Assembly (NCBI RefSeq): GCF_023238205.1
Contig: NZ_CP096659.1
Span: 3,427,626 to 3,491,625, forward strand
Source of the DNA: Halorussus limi
GTDB taxonomy: Archaea > Halobacteriota > Halobacteria > Halobacteriales > Haladaptataceae
Length of the DNA: 64,000 nucleotides
Direction: 5' to 3'
Part shown: one piece after another, positions 2,024 through 40,731 of the stretch
How the letters are laid out: each line of letters begins with the position of its first letter
Numbering within the stretch: position 1 is the first letter of the stretch
Translations under genes and position numbers: made by a program
The notes under the pieces: model-generated
The model's input: the letters and a program-made list of their open reading frames with translations, nothing else
Told to the model about the DNA's origin: nothing
Database searches by the model: none

Positions 2024-3409
2024 ATGGTAGACCTCGTCTTCTCGGCCGCGCGAATCGTGCTCGCGCTCTTTCTGGTGGTACTGAACGGCTTCTTCGTGGC
2101 CACGGAGTTCGCGTTCGTCCGCATCCGGTCGACCACCGTCGAATCGCTCGTCGAGGAGGGCGCGCCGGGCGCGTCCACGTTGCAGGCGGCCATCGACAAC
2201 CTCGACGACTACCTCGCGGTGACCCAACTCGGAATCACCATCGCGTCGCTGGGCCTCGGGTGGATCGGCGAACCGGCCGTGGCGGCGGTCCTCGAACCGG
2301 TTATAGGACCGTTCCTGCCGACGAATCTCGTCCACCTCGTCTCCTTCGCCGTGGGATTCGGCCTCATCACGTTCCTCCACGTCGTCTTCGGCGAACTCGC
2401 GCCCAAGACCATCGCCATCGCGCGCGCCGAGCGAGTCTCGCTGTTGGCCGCGCCGCCGATGAAGTTCTTCTATTACCTGTTCGTCCCGGGCATCATCCTG
2501 TTCAACGGCACGGCCAACGCCTTCACCCGACTACTCGGCGTCCCGCCGGTGTCCGAGACCGAAGAGAGCCTCGAAGAGGAGGAACTGCTGATGGTGTTGA
2601 CACGTTCGGGTAATCAGGGCCACATCGACAAGGCGGAGGTCGACATGATAGAGCGGGTGTTCGACCTCGACGACGTCTCGGTCCGCGAAGTGATGGTTCC
2701 CCGCCCGGACGTGGTGAGCGTCCGGTCCGACCTCCCGCTATCGGACCTCCGCGAACTGATAATCGAGTCCGGGCACACGCGCTATCCGGTCGTGGACGCC
2801 GACGACAGCGACCAGGCGGTCGGGTTCGTGGACGTGAAGGACGTGCTTCGGGCGGGCGAATCTGCGGACGCTGACGGGAGCGTCACGGCCGGCGATCTCG
2901 CGCGCGACCTGCCGGTCATCCCGGAGACCGGCCGCGTCAACGACCTCCTCACCGAGTTCCAGGACGAGCAGAGCCAGATGGCCGCGGTCATCGACGAGTG
3001 GGGGTCGTTCGAGGGCATCGTGACCGTCGAGGACCTCGTGGAGGTCGTCGTCGGCGACATCCGCGACGAGTTCGACGTGGACCACCGCGAACCCTCCATC
3101 GACCGGCGGAGCGACGGGGTCTTCTCCGTGGACGGCGGCGTCGCCGTCTCGGCGGTCAACGAGCGACTGGACGCCGACTTCGAGGTGTCGGAGTTCGACA
3201 CCGTCGGCGGACTGGTGCTGGACCGACTCGGGCGTGCGCCGGAGGTCGGCGACCGCATCGAGACCGACGGCTACTACCTCGACGTGGCCGACGTGGACGG
3301 CGCTCGGGTCTCGACGGTCGTCGTTCGGGAACGGGGACCGACGAGAGACGCGAGTAGCGAAGACGGAGACGAGCGGACGAAACCGCCGGAAGACGAACGG
3401 CCGAACTGA
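2024..3409 (+). CDS. CNNM/CorC-type (hemolysin C family) membrane transporter
   Basis: The 461-residue protein has the standard architecture of the family. An N-terminal DUF21/CNNM membrane domain (residues 1-185, about four hydrophobic segments) is followed by a CBS pair (about 200-340, with VREVMVPRPDVV and the acidic ESGHTRYPVV stretch) and a C-terminal CorC/HlyC transporter-associated domain (about 355-435). Family members are linked to Mg2+ or other divalent-cation and Na+ transport, with nucleotide binding at the CBS pair; the substrate here is not shown by sequence. The final 25 residues are a disordered acidic tail. It ends tail-to-tail with hisD, 6 nt apart. Confidence 0.88.
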   Translation: MVDLVFSAARIVLALFLVVLNGFFVATEFAFVRIRSTTVESLVEEGAPGASTLQAAIDNLDDYLAVTQLGITIASLGLGWIGEPAVAAVLEPVIGPFLPTNLVHLVSFAVGFGLITFLHVVFGELAPKTIAIARAERVSLLAAPPMKFFYYLFVPGIILFNGTANAFTRLLGVPPVSETEESLEEEELLMVLTRSGNQGHIDKAEVDMIERVFDLDDVSVREVMVPRPDVVSVRSDLPLSDLRELIIESGHTRYPVVDADDSDQAVGFVDVKDVLRAGESADADGSVTAGDLARDLPVIPETGRVNDLLTEFQDEQSQMAAVIDEWGSFEGIVTVEDLVEVVVGDIRDEFDVDHREPSIDRRSDGVFSVDGGVAVSAVNERLDADFEVSEFDTVGGLVLDRLGRAPEVGDRIETDGYYLDVADVDGARVSTVVVRERGPTRDASSEDGDERTKPPEDERPN

Positions 3410-3415
3410 CCGGCC

Positions 3416-4690
3416 TCAGTCCTCGAATCGCTTTCGCACGCTCTCGGCGTGCGCCTCCAACCCCTCGGCCTCCGCAAGCGTCGTAATCGTCTCCGAGAGG
3501 TCGCCGAGCGCGCCCTCGTCGAGTCGCTGGACGGTCGTCTCTCGCAGGAAGGTGTCGACCGACAGGCCGCCCGTTATCTTCGCTCCGCCGTTGGTCGGGA
3601 GAACGTGGTTGGTACCGCTGGCGTAGTCGCCCGCCGCGACCGGGGTGTAGGGACCGAGGAAGACGCTCCCGGCGCTGTCGATGCGGTCTAAAATCTCCTC
3701 GTCGTCGTCGGCCTGAATCGAGAGGTGTTCGGCGGCGTACTCCTCGGCGAACAGGATGGCCTCGCTGGGCGAGCGCGCGAGCAAGACGCCGCTCTCGTCG
3801 CCGTCGAGGGCCTTTCGGGCGACGTCCGCGCGCTCACGGTTCTCGACCTGCGACTCGACTTCTTCGGCGATAGCCTCGGCGGTGTCCTCGTCGTCGGTGA
3901 CGGCCACGACCGACGCCTCGGGGTCGTGTTCGGCCTGCGCCACGAGGTCCGCGGCCACGAGTCGAGGGTCAGCGGTGTCGTCGGCGACGACGAGAACCTC
4001 GCTCGGTCCCGCGAGGAAGTCGATGGCCACGTCGCCCTGCACCTCGGCCTTCGCCGCCGTGACCCACTTGTTGCCCGGTCCGACGACCTTCTGGACCCGG
4101 TCGACCTGCTCGGTGCCGTAGGCAAGCGCGGCCACCGCCTGCGCGCCGCCGACGTTGAACACCGCGTCCGCGCCCGCGACGTGGATGGCCGCGAGCGTCA
4201 CCGGGTTCATCTCCTCGGCGGGCGGGGTCGCCACCGCGACCTGCTCGACGCCGGCCACCTTCGCGGGAATCACGCCCATCAGCGCGCTGGAGGGGTAGGC
4301 CGCGGCCCCGCCGGGGACGTAGACCCCGACGCGTTCGAGCGGTCTGAACCGGCGACCCAACTCGCGGCCGTCGGCGAACTCCCGGCGCCAGTCGTCGGGG
4401 AGTTGGGCCTCGTGGAACTCCCGGACGTTCTCGGCGGCAGTCTCGATGGCCTCCCGAATCCCGTCGTCTATCTCGTCGTAGGCGCGTTCGGCCTCGTCGG
4501 TGATGTCCAAGTTGCCGACCGAGACGCCGTCGAACTCCTCGCAGAACTCCCGGACCGCCACGTCGCCCTCCTCACGGACGCGCGAGACGATGTCGCGCAC
4601 GTCCTCGCGGACGCCTTCGATACCGGCGTCGCGGTCGAACAGCGCCCGCCGGTCGTCGGGGCCGAGGTCCGCAAGCTTTCGTACGTTCAT
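3416..4690 (-). CDS. hisD: Histidinol dehydrogenase
   Basis: HisD carries out the last two oxidations of histidine biosynthesis, L-histidinol to L-histidine with two NAD+. The 424-residue length is standard. Zinc ligands are visible as Gln252 and His255 (AQAEHDP), Asp355 and the C-terminal His414. The catalytic Glu321-His322 pair lies in AAEHLS, and the GPSEV and GTNHVLPT signatures are present. The ATG at 4690 gives the canonical N-terminus; further upstream the frame is Arg-rich non-coding sequence. No other his genes are nearby, as is common in haloarchaea where his genes are scattered. Confidence 0.96.
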   Translation of the reverse strand: MNVRKLADLGPDDRRALFDRDAGIEGVREDVRDIVSRVREEGDVAVREFCEEFDGVSVGNLDITDEAERAYDEIDDGIREAIETAAENVREFHEAQLPDDWRREFADGRELGRRFRPLERVGVYVPGGAAAYPSSALMGVIPAKVAGVEQVAVATPPAEEMNPVTLAAIHVAGADAVFNVGGAQAVAALAYGTEQVDRVQKVVGPGNKWVTAAKAEVQGDVAIDFLAGPSEVLVVADDTADPRLVAADLVAQAEHDPEASVVAVTDDEDTAEAIAEEVESQVENRERADVARKALDGDESGVLLARSPSEAILFAEEYAAEHLSIQADDDEEILDRIDSAGSVFLGPYTPVAAGDYASGTNHVLPTNGGAKITGGLSVDTFLRETTVQRLDEGALGDLSETITTLAEAEGLEAHAESVRKRFED

Positions 4691-4912: not shown

Positions 4913-6589
4913 GTGACCTCCGAATCGACCGACCCGCGCGGTTCGACCGCCGGGCGCGAGTCGGGTCGGACGAAGGACGACCCGACTCGCAGCGACGCCG
5001 CCGATTCGACTGTGCCTGACTCCCACGTCTCTGGCGCGAGCGAGGAGTCGCCGACGGGCGACGCGACCGGTCGCGACCCGGCGGAGGCCCGCCTCGAAGA
5101 CGCGCTAGAGCGGGTCGCCCACGGCGCGACCGTCTCGGTGCCGAGCATCCTCCTCCAGCGCGGACTGACGCTGGCCTTCACCGCAGTTCTGACGAACGGG
5201 TTCTCCGCCGGGGCGTACGGCGTGTTCGCGCTGGCCCGACGACTCCAGCGGTATCTGCTCCGACTCACGCTCGGTTTCCGGCGCGGACTGAGCCGGTTCC
5301 TGCCGAACGCCGACTCGAACGCCGAGCGCGACGCGCTCGCCACGTTCGCGGGTCTGTTGCTGGTCGGCGTCGCCACTGCGTTCGGCGTCGCGCTGTTCGC
5401 CGCCGCGCCGCTGGTGACGCGAGTCGCCGACGAAGGCGCACAGTTCGAACTCTTCCTGCGCATCTTCGCGGTCGGTCTCCCGGCGGGCGTCTGGCTGTTC
5501 ACCGTGACCGAGGTGCTGCGCGGTCTCGAAGCCGTCGGCCCGCTGAACCTCACCCTCCGGGTCTGCTTCCCGACGGCCCAACTCGGGGTGGGCGCGGTCG
5601 CCACCTTCGTCTTCCACGACCTCGCGCTCGCCGCCGCGGGCGTCCTGCTCGTCATGGGACTGTCGGGCGTCGGCGCGGCCGTCTGGCTGGTCCGCGAACG
5701 CGACTTCCGTCCCCGACTCCGGGGCGGCGACGCCGCGCGACTCCGACGGAAGTACCTCTCGTTCACCCTCCCGCTGTTCGTCGGCGGGTTCGCCACCACG
5801 ACTCAGCGACTCGGGTTCTACCCGCTCATCGCGATGTTCCTGTCGAGCGTCGCGGGCGGCGTGTTCGCGGTGGGCGTCCTCGTCGGCACGCTGGTCCGCC
5901 TGCCGCTGCTGGGCATCAACCAGTTCATCCCGCCGGTCGCGGCCGCGCTCCACGAGGAGGGCCACCGGGACGCGCTCGCGAGACTCTACCACGTGACGAG
6001 TCGGCTAGTGCTGGTCGGCGTGACGGGGCTCGCGATTCCGGTCGTGGTCTACCGAAAGTCCGTGATGAGTCTGTTCGGTCCGACGTTCGTCGAGTACGCA
6101 CCGCTCCTGCCGGGATTCGTCGTCGCGCAGTACGCCGCCTGCGCCGCGGGGAGCGTCGGCATCCTGCTGACGATGACCGACCACCAGCGGGCGCTGCTCG
6201 TCGTCAACGTCGTCATCACCGCGTTTCTGACCGTGACGGCGATTCCGCTGACCACGGAGTTCGGACTCCCGGGGTTGGTGGGGAGTTACGTGCTGATGCT
6301 GACCATCAACAACGGTCTGGAGGTGGCGGTGCTGTACTACCTCGAAGGACTCCAGCCGTTCACGCGCCTCCACGCGAAGCCGTTGGTCGCGGGGCTACCG
6401 TTAGCACTGGTCGCGCTGACCGTCAGGTTCGCGCTGCCGGACACCGTCGCGTTCGTAGTCGGAACCGCACTGGGACTGCTCGCGTACGCGGTGTCGCTCC
6501 GACGCCTCAAGTTCACGACGGTCGAGCGGCGACTGGGCGCGACGCTGGTCGAACGCTACCGAGACGCGTTTCCAACGTCGCTCCGGTAA
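4913..6589 (+). CDS. Polysaccharide/oligosaccharide flippase (Wzx/MATE-like)
   Basis: The 558-residue protein has a disordered acidic N-terminus of about 70 residues. About 12-14 hydrophobic segments follow with the repeated layout of the polysaccharide-transport (Wzx, MOP) superfamily, which flips lipid-linked glycans across the membrane. The GTG start is favoured by a TATA-like element at -28. It stands alone, separated from the main polysaccharide region by the rRNA operon, and a second flippase of the same superfamily lies at 53126-54592. The lipid-linked substrate cannot be inferred. Confidence 0.82.
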   Translation: MTSESTDPRGSTAGRESGRTKDDPTRSDAADSTVPDSHVSGASEESPTGDATGRDPAEARLEDALERVAHGATVSVPSILLQRGLTLAFTAVLTNGFSAGAYGVFALARRLQRYLLRLTLGFRRGLSRFLPNADSNAERDALATFAGLLLVGVATAFGVALFAAAPLVTRVADEGAQFELFLRIFAVGLPAGVWLFTVTEVLRGLEAVGPLNLTLRVCFPTAQLGVGAVATFVFHDLALAAAGVLLVMGLSGVGAAVWLVRERDFRPRLRGGDAARLRRKYLSFTLPLFVGGFATTTQRLGFYPLIAMFLSSVAGGVFAVGVLVGTLVRLPLLGINQFIPPVAAALHEEGHRDALARLYHVTSRLVLVGVTGLAIPVVVYRKSVMSLFGPTFVEYAPLLPGFVVAQYAACAAGSVGILLTMTDHQRALLVVNVVITAFLTVTAIPLTTEFGLPGLVGSYVLMLTINNGLEVAVLYYLEGLQPFTRLHAKPLVAGLPLALVALTVRFALPDTVAFVVGTALGLLAYAVSLRRLKFTTVERRLGATLVERYRDAFPTSLR

Positions 6590-6630
6590 CGACTCGTTTC
6601 TCTTCGCGATTGGGCGAGGTCCGCGACTTC

Positions 6631-37972: not shown

Positions 37973-38088
37973 ACACGTCCTACGGCCGGTTTTCCGGGTT
38001 AAGCTCGCGTTACTCGGCGGAAACCGAGCGTTTCGCCGGTTGCGGACCGTTCCGTTCCGACCGTTCCACCCCCGGCCATAACACTTAA

Positions 38089-38155
38089 ATCAGTAATGTA
38101 GCATTGAATCGAAGTCGGTAGGTTTATGAATAGGTAGTCTCGCATTGAGAAATAC
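38089..38155 (+). promoter_or_regulatory. Promoter region of the Tat beta-helix gene, duplicated at 40.2 kb
   Basis: The region contains ACTTAAATC, GCATTGAATCGAAGTCGGTA, a TATA-like GGTTTATGAA about 28 nt before the ATG, and a second GCATTGA 41 nt after the first. All of these elements recur in the same order and spacing at 40213-40292, the only other place they are found here. Confidence 0.6.
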
Positions 38156-39679
38156 ATGGCACGCGACGATACGGCACGCGACCGCAGTTCGGACGATTCA
38201 CTGCTCGACCGACGCTCGTACCTCAAGATGGCCGGTGCGGCGGCCGCGACGGTCGGGGCGGCAGGCGTCTCCGCCAACTCCGCGGAGGCGGCGTCCTACG
38301 ACACCATCAAGGTTCCCGCGAACACGAAGAAGGTAATCGACGTGAACGGCGGCGAGACCTTCGAGAACAAACTCATCGACATCACGGCCGACGGCGCGCA
38401 CGTGAAGTTGATGACTCACGGCAGCGGGTGGACGGTCCGGAACGTCGGAGTCAAGGGCGAGAACAACAACATGGACGGTACCTACGGTACCTTCTACCTC
38501 CGCTGCACCGAGGACGGCGAGGCGCTCGCGGAGAACATCTACATGGGCGACGGCGCGGCCGACCGGTGCGGGCACGCGGCGGTCTCGGACTGGGCCAACG
38601 CCGGCACCGTCACCATCCGGAACATCCACGTTCAGGGCTGGGCGGCCGACGGGATGTACATGTCCCACGCGGGCAACCACGTCAAGCAGACGATGGGCGT
38701 CACGCAGGTCGAGAACGCCTACCTCAAGAACAACAACATCGAGAACTGTCGGCTCGGCACGCCCGGCAGTTACATCAAGGACAGCGTCGTCCACGTCGAG
38801 AGCCAGGACGCCGTCCCGTCCAACGAGTCGGGCCAGACCAACGCCCGCGGCATCTGGTTCAAGGAGCAGTCGGGCCTGAAGGCCATCAACTGCGACATCT
38901 CTGTCAAGGGCTCTCACGCGGTCTTCGCCAGCAACGAGGGCGAGGGCACGCTGGAGAACTGCCGAGTCGAAGGCCCCGTCACCGGCCCGGTCGAGCAGGT
39001 AAACGTCTCGGGCAGCCCCGACGTCACGCCGCCCGCGAGCGTCCCGATGTCGGCCGAGGAGGCCGCCTCGGGCGAAATCGACTCGTCGTCGAACACGTCC
39101 TCGCCCGCGAACGAGACCACCCAGTCGGACGGCACCAGCGACTCGCAGGGTAGCCTCTTCGAACTCGTCGCCGCGGAAGGCCACAAGAACGTGAAGTACG
39201 AGTTCACCGTCGAGGGGAGCGTCCGCAAGCGCACCTCCGGCGACGGCCCCAACTCCGAGAGCAGCGATAGCGTGACCGACAACGGCGACGGCACGGTGAC
39301 GGTGTCCGGCGTCGCGGGCAACGGCTTCGGCGACGCCTACTACGTGGACGGAGCCATCACGTCGGTGAATCTGGACGAGAGCGTCTGGACGCTCCGACTC
39401 GACGGTAGCGAGGTGACTCCCGACGACCTGACGCTCCCGAACAAACTGGTCATCGACGGCAGCAACCGCCCGCGCGTCGCGGCCGACTACACCTTCGAGG
39501 TCAGCGGTGCGGCGCGCAAGAGCACCGAACTCGGTTCGGTCCAGAAGAACGACAGCGTCTCGGCCGGCGAGATAACCGGGTCGGTCTTCGGCGGTAAGGA
39601 CGGCTACCGGTTCTCCGGCGAGGTCACCGGCTTCAGCCTCGACGGTGCCGCGAACGTCCGCGTCGAAGACGGGTCCTGA
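38156..39679 (+). CDS. Tat-exported beta-helix protein
   Basis: The 507-residue protein has a Tat signal (LLDRRSYLKMAG, then an Ala-rich core and likely cleavage near SAEAAS, about residue 45). It has no lipobox cysteine, so it is probably released or S-layer-associated. Residues 50-290 form beta-helix-like turns with short repeats (N-I-x-N/D-C-x-I). A Ser/Thr-rich linker (about 300-335) and two related C-terminal beta domains follow (about 338-420 and 425-507; both have YEFTVEG/YTFEVSG and a late VTGFSLD/ITSVNLD element). It likely binds or processes surface polysaccharide; function is inferred. Similar to the lipoprotein at 31284-32732. Confidence 0.8.
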   Translation: MARDDTARDRSSDDSLLDRRSYLKMAGAAAATVGAAGVSANSAEAASYDTIKVPANTKKVIDVNGGETFENKLIDITADGAHVKLMTHGSGWTVRNVGVKGENNNMDGTYGTFYLRCTEDGEALAENIYMGDGAADRCGHAAVSDWANAGTVTIRNIHVQGWAADGMYMSHAGNHVKQTMGVTQVENAYLKNNNIENCRLGTPGSYIKDSVVHVESQDAVPSNESGQTNARGIWFKEQSGLKAINCDISVKGSHAVFASNEGEGTLENCRVEGPVTGPVEQVNVSGSPDVTPPASVPMSAEEAASGEIDSSSNTSSPANETTQSDGTSDSQGSLFELVAAEGHKNVKYEFTVEGSVRKRTSGDGPNSESSDSVTDNGDGTVTVSGVAGNGFGDAYYVDGAITSVNLDESVWTLRLDGSEVTPDDLTLPNKLVIDGSNRPRVAADYTFEVSGAARKSTELGSVQKNDSVSAGEITGSVFGGKDGYRFSGEVTGFSLDGAANVRVEDGS

Positions 39680-40212
39680 GTCGGTTCCCCCGACGGCGCG
39701 CACTCCGCGGTCGTCCCCCTCTCCGATGCGGCCCGTGACCTTCCCCCAGCGTGGTCCGCGACCTCCCCTCTCGCCCGTCGATTCCGCCCTCCGTTCCCGG
39801 TTCGACTCCCTCATCGCCCTCCACGACGGCCGCTTCGCACCCGCTAACCGCTCTCCCCACGTCTCGATTTCCTCTCTTCCTCTCTACTCCCTCATTTTAC
39901 CCCCTCGACACTACTTTCTCTTCTTGACCTTCGTCCCTCCGTTGCGACGCTCTCCTTCTCTCGACAGTTCGTCGGAGTCACTCTTCGTCTCGACCGACAT
40001 CTCTCGTCCGGCGCCTCTCGTCCGACTCCTGACGGAGGGCCGACGACCTGCTCGAACCGTCGTTCCGGCCACTGTTTCACTCCGTTCCGCCATCCGTTCC
40101 CCGGAAATGCCGAATTACGCGCCGCTTTCGGCGAGCGATGACTTATAACGGAGTCGCACGTCGGCCCGAACGGCGGCGAGTCGGCCGGAAGCCAGCGACC
40201 GGCATCGTTCGG
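39680..40212. other. Gene-free region with a pyrimidine-rich plus strand
   Basis: About 530 nt contain no credible gene. From about 39700 to 40085 the plus strand is strongly biased to C and T, with many CTCT, CCCTC and TTCC runs. Open frames here are Ser/Arg/Pro-rich and do not look haloarchaeal. Confidence 0.6.
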
Positions 40213-40292
40213 CCATTATACTTAAATCGGCAAGCTAGCATTGAACAGAAGTCGGTACCTTTTTCAAGTGGTAATGACGCATTGAAGACTGC
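40213..40292 (+). promoter_or_regulatory. Duplicate of the Tat beta-helix gene promoter
   Basis: ACTTAAATC, TAGCATTGAAC, GAAGTCGGTA, a T-rich TATA-like element about 28 nt before the ATG, and a second GCATTGA 41 nt after the first match the 38.1 kb copy closely. Confidence 0.6.
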
Positions 40293-40514
40293 ATGGCACG
40301 CGACGTTACGGCACGCGACTCGAAGTCCGAAACGACCCTCCTCGACCGTCGTTCGGCCCGCTGGCACGCCGGGTCGACTTCGACGGCGACCGACGGGCGC
40401 GAGACTGCGACCTCGCCCGGAGCGAACCCCGCTGACGAGACCACTCCCGCTGGCACACCGACGCTCTGCCCTCCCGGCCGCGCGTCCGGCGCGGAGGTGC
40501 GCGATGGCTCCTGA
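40293..40514 (+). pseudogene. Truncated 5' copy of the Tat beta-helix gene
   Basis: The first 20 codons (MARDVTARDSKSETTLLDRRS) closely match the N-terminus of the intact gene (MARDDTARDRSSDDSLLDRRS), and the upstream region matches too. After the twin-arginine motif the similarity stops. The rest of the 73-codon frame is Thr/Pro/Gly-rich with no hydrophobic core, so it cannot be a working signal peptide. The frame ends by overlapping the start of the small gene at 40504 by 11 nt, so this promoter may now drive that gene. Confidence 0.7.
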
Positions 40515-40731
40515 GAACGCCCACTCCGAGACCGAGGGCTGGCAGGACGCGCCCCGCGACCCGGACCCCTCCGACCTCGGGTACGAACTGGACGACTGGG
40601 AAGTCATCCGCGCCCGGAAGGACGACCGCGGCCACCTGATGTTCCTCCCCGAAGAAGAAGAGATGCTCCGCGACGAGGCGTTCATCGTCGCCGACGCCCG
40701 CTCGGTCTGCGACGTCGTCGACCGAATCTAA
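40504..40731 (+). CDS. Small acidic haloarchaeal protein of unknown function
   Basis: The 75-residue soluble protein is very acidic, with a conserved-looking core DLGYELDDWEVIRARKDD and LMFLPEEEEMLRDEAFIVADA. I recognise the style of a small conserved haloarchaeal protein but not a named family. It starts inside the end of the truncated Tat fragment and ends with a 4-nt overlap against the GlmM gene on the opposite strand. No catalytic motif is visible. Confidence 0.7.
   Translation: MAPENAHSETEGWQDAPRDPDPSDLGYELDDWEVIRARKDDRGHLMFLPEEEEMLRDEAFIVADARSVCDVVDRI

Follow-up and report, generated by a model that had tools for sequence, protein, structure and literature searches.

Results

Genes and features at the locus

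The window, by which we mean the whole stretch of 64,000 nucleotides of Halorussus limi that was analysed, contains a full-length gene of a Tat beta-helix protein (copy 1), a second copy at 40213-40514 (copy 2), which here is a short frame, and a small gene that the short frame overlaps (Table 1). The original prediction described the promoter elements and the first ~20 codons of the gene at 38156 as repeated in copy 2 in the same order and spacing, and the alignment bears this out. The local alignment of 38073-38219 with 40210-40356 scores 126, against 39 for the best of ~2000 random stretches of the window, and 88 of the 110 positions from 38073 to 38182 are identical at a constant offset of 2137 between copy 1 and copy 2. 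TTAAAT, the two GCATTGA boxes and the ATG have the same order and spacing in both copies. No further match of comparable extent was found in the own genome, where the next ones cover 64, 85, and 27 query bases. The likeness fades past codon ~21 (LLDRRS), and the short frame has lost the hydrophobic Tat segment, as had also been predicted. The window's short frame retains the RR, lacks the hydrophobic stretch and the beta-helix domain, and gives no Pfam match; it is not itself a Tat beta-helix protein. Its stop codon lies 11 nt inside the small gene, which is the overlap originally reported.

Table 1. Positions of the genes and sequence elements in the window
Feature	Position	Strand	Remarks
Copy 1, full-length Tat beta-helix protein, 507 aa	38156..39679	+	Pfam Beta_helix PF13229, E 1.6e-06
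TATA-like box TTAAAT, -71 from leader ATG, upstream promoter unit	40222..40227	+	TATA-like box at -70 to -72 in 18/18 Halorussus copy-2 promoters
Distal GCATTGA box, -55	40238..40244	+	[CTA]ATTGA box at -54/-55 in 18/18 Halorussus
Proximal GCATTGA box, -14, just 5' of start codon	40279..40285	+	Strict pattern at -13/-14 in 15/18; shared with unlinked Tat genes
Leader ORF (73 aa) left over from full-length copy 2; putative coupling leader	40293..40514	+	Open and in phase in 18/18; short (52-98 aa) in 14, long in 4
GGAGGTG, Shine-Dalgarno motif for small gene, within last codons of leader ORF	40493..40499	+	GGAGG at most 14 nt upstream of small-gene ATG in 16/18
Small conserved gene, 75 aa, overlapping leader ORF by 11 nt	40504..40731	+	Without match in Pfam or NCBIfam; changes strongly concentrated at third codon positions

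All 18 Halorussus genomes read ATGGCACGCGA at the start of copy 2. Upstream of the small gene, no promoter other than that of copy 2 is recognised. The promoters of copy 1 (38085-38148) and copy 2 (40222-40285) each look like two tandem units ~41 nt apart, every unit consisting of a TATA-like box followed by GCATTGA; both units are clearer in the sister genera.

Judging by its sequence, part of the N-terminal likeness of the two copies reflects a leader conserved at the nucleotide level in a wider set of genes, because the leader pattern recurs at unlinked Tat genes and the rare codon GCA is fixed at codon 2. Across 18 genomes, the pattern ATTGA-(4 to 10 nt)-ATGGCACG was counted 54 times and the reversed pattern twice. 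Twenty unlinked matches picked by hand all start long MARD... frames (332-516 aa); Pfam found polysaccharide lyase 14 and glycosyl hydrolase 16 in two of the four that were scanned, and five of seven further leader sites belong to Tat-like genes. GCA accounts for 3.0% of alanine codons (neighbouring gene, 10 genomes), yet it is codon 2 in 51 of 51 copy-1 and copy-2 sequences. The common leader, with its TATA box, GCATTGA box, ATGGCACGCGA, and fixed GCA (38073-38170 and 40210-40305 in the window; L099-L118 and L126-L131 elsewhere), precedes unlinked Tat-signal genes of the beta-helix, polysaccharide lyase 14, and GH16 families in Halorussus and the sister genera. It is likely to mark a regulon or a re-used promoter-plus-signal cassette.

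Of the 99 genomes searched, counting the own one, 46 contain the small gene, including every one of the 28 in the own family; its nearest records come from Halorussus species and one Halobacteriales MAG. The small protein has no relative in the PDB (best E 0.73), and its AlphaFold model has a mean pLDDT of 48, too poor for a fold search. By eye, it has no signal sequence. Among six more distant loci, four have a beta-helix relative upstream on the same strand (G060, G068, G085, and G092; not G082 and G070). Since the small protein lacks a signal sequence and is a frequent neighbour of Tat beta-helix genes, our guess is that it might be a cytoplasmic partner of this protein group.

A full-length ancestor and repeated shortening

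The search of the 99 genomes retrieved 33 loci, which were compared by a protein map and by frame-by-frame reading. Each of the 18 Halorussus genomes has the same neighbourhood, as does each of the 10 from two sister genera. In the sister genera, copy 2 is a protein of 475-505 aa in every genome and lies directly upstream of the small gene, with an overlap of -4 to +5 nt in nine; the start codon was not found in the tenth. Four of the Halorussus genomes likewise have a long copy 2 directly upstream of the small gene (G002, 429 aa; G006, 521; G007, 314; G013, 540). In the other 14 it is short, at 52, 61, 64, 65, 69, 70, 73, 75, 77, 79, 79, 83, 87, and 98 aa. The protein of G007 looks intermediate, having lost the C-terminal domain and kept the last codons, EVRDG. 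Three full-length copy-2 proteins scanned against Pfam gave no match, and the kinship of the full copy-2 proteins to the beta-helix group is drawn from their likeness to copy 1.

Since relatives (4 of the 18 Halorussus genomes and all 10 from the sister genera) carry a full-length homologue at this position, copy 2 in the window is a remnant, and a short frame without a longer ancestor was not seen in Halorussus or the sister genera. It differs from a pseudogene, whose frame is free to break, in being unbroken and in phase in all 18 Halorussus genomes. The original prediction of a fossil duplication is therefore supported as to descent from a full-length copy and unsupported as to the fossil, since the frame stays open and in phase everywhere while its middle changes freely.

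On a species tree built from the phosphodiesterase and GlmM-type mutase proteins of 25 of the 28 family genomes, the four long forms sit in three separate places. Under loss-only counting, this distribution implies at least six separate shortenings, some of the nodes being weak (55-57). The six shortened groups are G017; G009 and G011; G001 and G003; G012 and G015; G000, G005, G008, and G010; and G016, G004, and G014, and splitting the weakly supported groups would raise the count. A single shortening event is ruled out under the same counting. The four full copy-2 proteins are monophyletic (100) with the topology (G013,(G006,(G002,G007))). Because this clade branches as the species tree does, vertical descent of the long form is favoured over its regain. 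Gene conversion from copy 1 as a route back to full length is likewise unsupported, as the full copy-2 proteins form their own clade.

The protein tree places the origin of both copies before the genus Halorussus, which rules out a recent duplication in the own genome. Copy 1 has a history of its own. In G003 and G012 (L068 and L077; oriented coordinates 5726-6622 and 2786-3676), its place is taken by genes of 298 and 296 aa that branch with the copy-2 group, apart from the other Halorussus copy-1 genes, as by replacement or conversion. G011 (L076) has copy 1, together with the phosphodiesterase gene next to it, in the opposite orientation to the other genomes. Copy 1 is also shortened in G001, G005, and G016 (L066, L070, and L081), with its promoter and N-terminal codons retained and no gene overlapping its end; the frame in G016 seems shifted within ~10 codons, a small contrast to copy 2.

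Constraint on frame, phase, and the overlapping end

In every one of the 18 genomes, the distance from the copy-2 ATG to the small-gene ATG equals 1 modulo 3, although the 14 short forms take 13 different values. The spacer between copy 1 and copy 2, taken as a control, is spread over the three phases as 6/6/5 in 17 genomes. The chance of such phase retention would be (1/3)^6 = 0.0014 for six independent events and 6e-7 if each distinct length were one event; the true value lies between the two, because some changes may predate the decay. Gaps in the leader frame are multiples of three in 7 of 7 cases, against 4 of 31 in the spacer (four genome pairs that share members and are thus non-independent). 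Between the two ATGs, the true frame has stops in none of the 14 short genomes, and the other frames have them in 4 and 7. Shuffled middles stay open in 43-78% of cases, so that openness alone is weak evidence in GC-rich DNA, and we dropped the open frame by itself as proof of selection.

Changes in the middle of the short frame are even over the three codon positions (16/14/17, pooled over two sister pairs only, or 4 of the 14 short forms), and those in the small gene are 2/1/22. The peptide encoded by the middle thus appears free of amino-acid constraint in these pairs. A coupling uORF, whose peptide is irrelevant and whose frame and end position matter, would have the properties seen here, with the codon-position counts coming from those two pairs.

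In every Halorussus genome, the two genes are co-directed with overlapping stop and start, the arrangement of translational coupling. The copy-2 stop lies 11 or 14 nt inside the small gene (11 nt in G009). The C-terminus VEV(Q/H/R)DGS of three of the four long forms is encoded by the same bases as the end of the short forms, which therefore retained their last codons from the full-length gene, and these codons carry the Shine-Dalgarno (SD) motif. Such a motif before the second start is common in haloarchaeal pairs, though not essential. GGAGG occurs in 1.7% of background 14-nt windows, against 16 of 18 upstream of the small gene; the two remaining Halorussus genomes have GAGGT and GGGGGG instead. 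In a folding test of SD accessibility, the mean unpaired value was 0.37 against a background of 0.39, with no consistent pattern, which lends no support to a uniform coupling mechanism in which RNA structure would mask the SD motif.

Discussion

Our data suggest, with a probability of about 0.7, that copy 2 has repeatedly shrunk to a leader frame from which ribosomes pass to the small gene by termination-reinitiation. In Halorussus, the full-length Tat beta-helix copy 2 and the 75-aa gene form an overlapping pair, from which the coding middle of copy 2 was lost. Left in place were the tandem TATA/GCATTGA promoter, the start codon with the first ~9-20 codons, a frame that is uninterrupted and correctly phased, and, at the end, the 4-6 codons that contain the SD motif and overlap the small-gene start. 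We infer that transcription begins at the copy-2 promoter and that ribosomes translate the short frame, terminate a few nucleotides beyond the small-gene ATG, and reinitiate there with the aid of the SD motif. The short frame has probably been retained since the small gene can be translated only by ribosomes that have first crossed it. Its being open and in phase in every genome, with a freely changing middle, points to a present role.

Work on overlapping gene pairs of H. volcanii suggests why a deletion that breaks the frame would silence the small gene. A premature stop in the upstream gene abolished translation of the second gene, and haloarchaea use SD motifs for reinitiation and not for de novo starts, according to the portions of PMC6728339 drawn on here. 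In Haloferax, a stop ~22 nt upstream of the start no longer supports coupling (PMC10666635, section 5), whereas in E. coli the final 15 nt of the upstream gene are enough for it (PMC10666635, section 7). From these rules it follows that losing copy 2 while keeping the small gene would require its promoter, its start, an open frame in phase, the SD motif, and the overlap, all of which are present here. The original prediction held that the promoter had been captured by the downstream gene. This is contradicted by the 4 Halorussus and 10 sister-genus genomes in which the small gene already follows the full-length copy 2 as its adjacent or overlapping partner.

Part of the evidence would also fit a frame that is decaying junk, with the promoter alone retained for the need of the small gene. 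The middle is without amino-acid constraint, the Tat signal is lost in most forms, and GC-rich DNA easily stays open. Passive decay nevertheless leaves unexplained why phase is retained in 18 of 18 genomes when that of the spacer is random, why gaps come in threes in 7 of 7 cases against 4 of 31, and why the same promoter, start, and end were retained through at least six separate shortenings, and we regard it as unlikely. Less probable still is a role of the short frame as the gene of a functional small protein or peptide. Its openness in 18 of 18 genomes and the well-conserved N-terminal ~21 codons would suit such a product, which is however hard to reconcile with a length varying from 52 to 98 aa and with a middle lacking third-position excess. 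Moreover, the conserved N-terminal codons look like a shared cis element, because they are the same, synonymous sites included, in the long genes and in unlinked Tat genes.

An open, in-phase frame with an irrelevant peptide would be predicted equally by polarity, in which the frame is kept not for reinitiation but because transcription would end prematurely, or the mRNA decay, if the stretch went untranslated. This account does not explain the retained overlap and SD motif, and H. volcanii transcripts with long untranslated parts are stable according to the relevant part of PMC6728339; we consider it improbable to the same degree as a functional peptide.

If reinitiation is indeed the constraint, a dispensable first gene in a haloarchaeal operon could not simply be deleted, because the overlapping second gene cannot start de novo from its SD motif. 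The first gene would instead shrink, in frame, until only the minimal stretch needed to supply its neighbour with ribosomes is left. We give even odds to the broader proposal that gene loss in haloarchaeal operons is constrained in this way and that such 'coupling husks' form a general, searchable class of short ORFs. The locus would then show, as an experiment repeated by nature, what a gene must retain solely for its neighbour to be expressed, namely the promoter, the start region, the open frame, and the last codons. Many unexplained short ORFs in haloarchaeal operons would be husks of lost genes, recognisable in sequence by a retained frame and phase, a free peptide, and an SD motif at the end. 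Our searches of the open-access literature turned up the mechanism of coupling and the concept of the uORF, but no report of repeated shrinkage of a gene to a coupling leader, and those on Halorussus with beta helix or polysaccharide yielded nothing on the locus of copy 2 and the small gene.

Among known systems, the Tat-exported right-handed beta-helix proteins of haloarchaea (PF13229), which copy 1 matches, represent the ancestor of the short frame; the latter, which lacks the beta-helix and in the window also the hydrophobic Tat segment, is no longer a member. The coupled overlapping pairs of H. volcanii (Huber et al. 2019, PMC6728339; 2023, PMC10666635), as far as the cited sections describe them, are alike in being co-directed haloarchaeal overlaps with an intragenic SD motif and a stop very near the downstream start. 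They differ in that the upstream partner in Halorussus is a remnant of 52-98 codons without a conserved peptide, for which coupling is proposed from sequence patterns, and in the overlap, which is 11-14 nt here and usually 4, 1, or 8 nt there. Overlaps above 8 nt are rare in H. volcanii (PMC10666635, section 8), which counts somewhat against the Halorussus pair as a standard case of coupling, and overlaps of 11-14 nt are not among the tested cases in the sections cited here. Coupling uORFs, as characterised in the portion of a review considered (PMC12548453), share with the short frame its proposed sole role of bringing ribosomes to a downstream gene. In contrast to them, the Halorussus leader arose by the shrinkage of a full gene, apparently at least six times in one genus.
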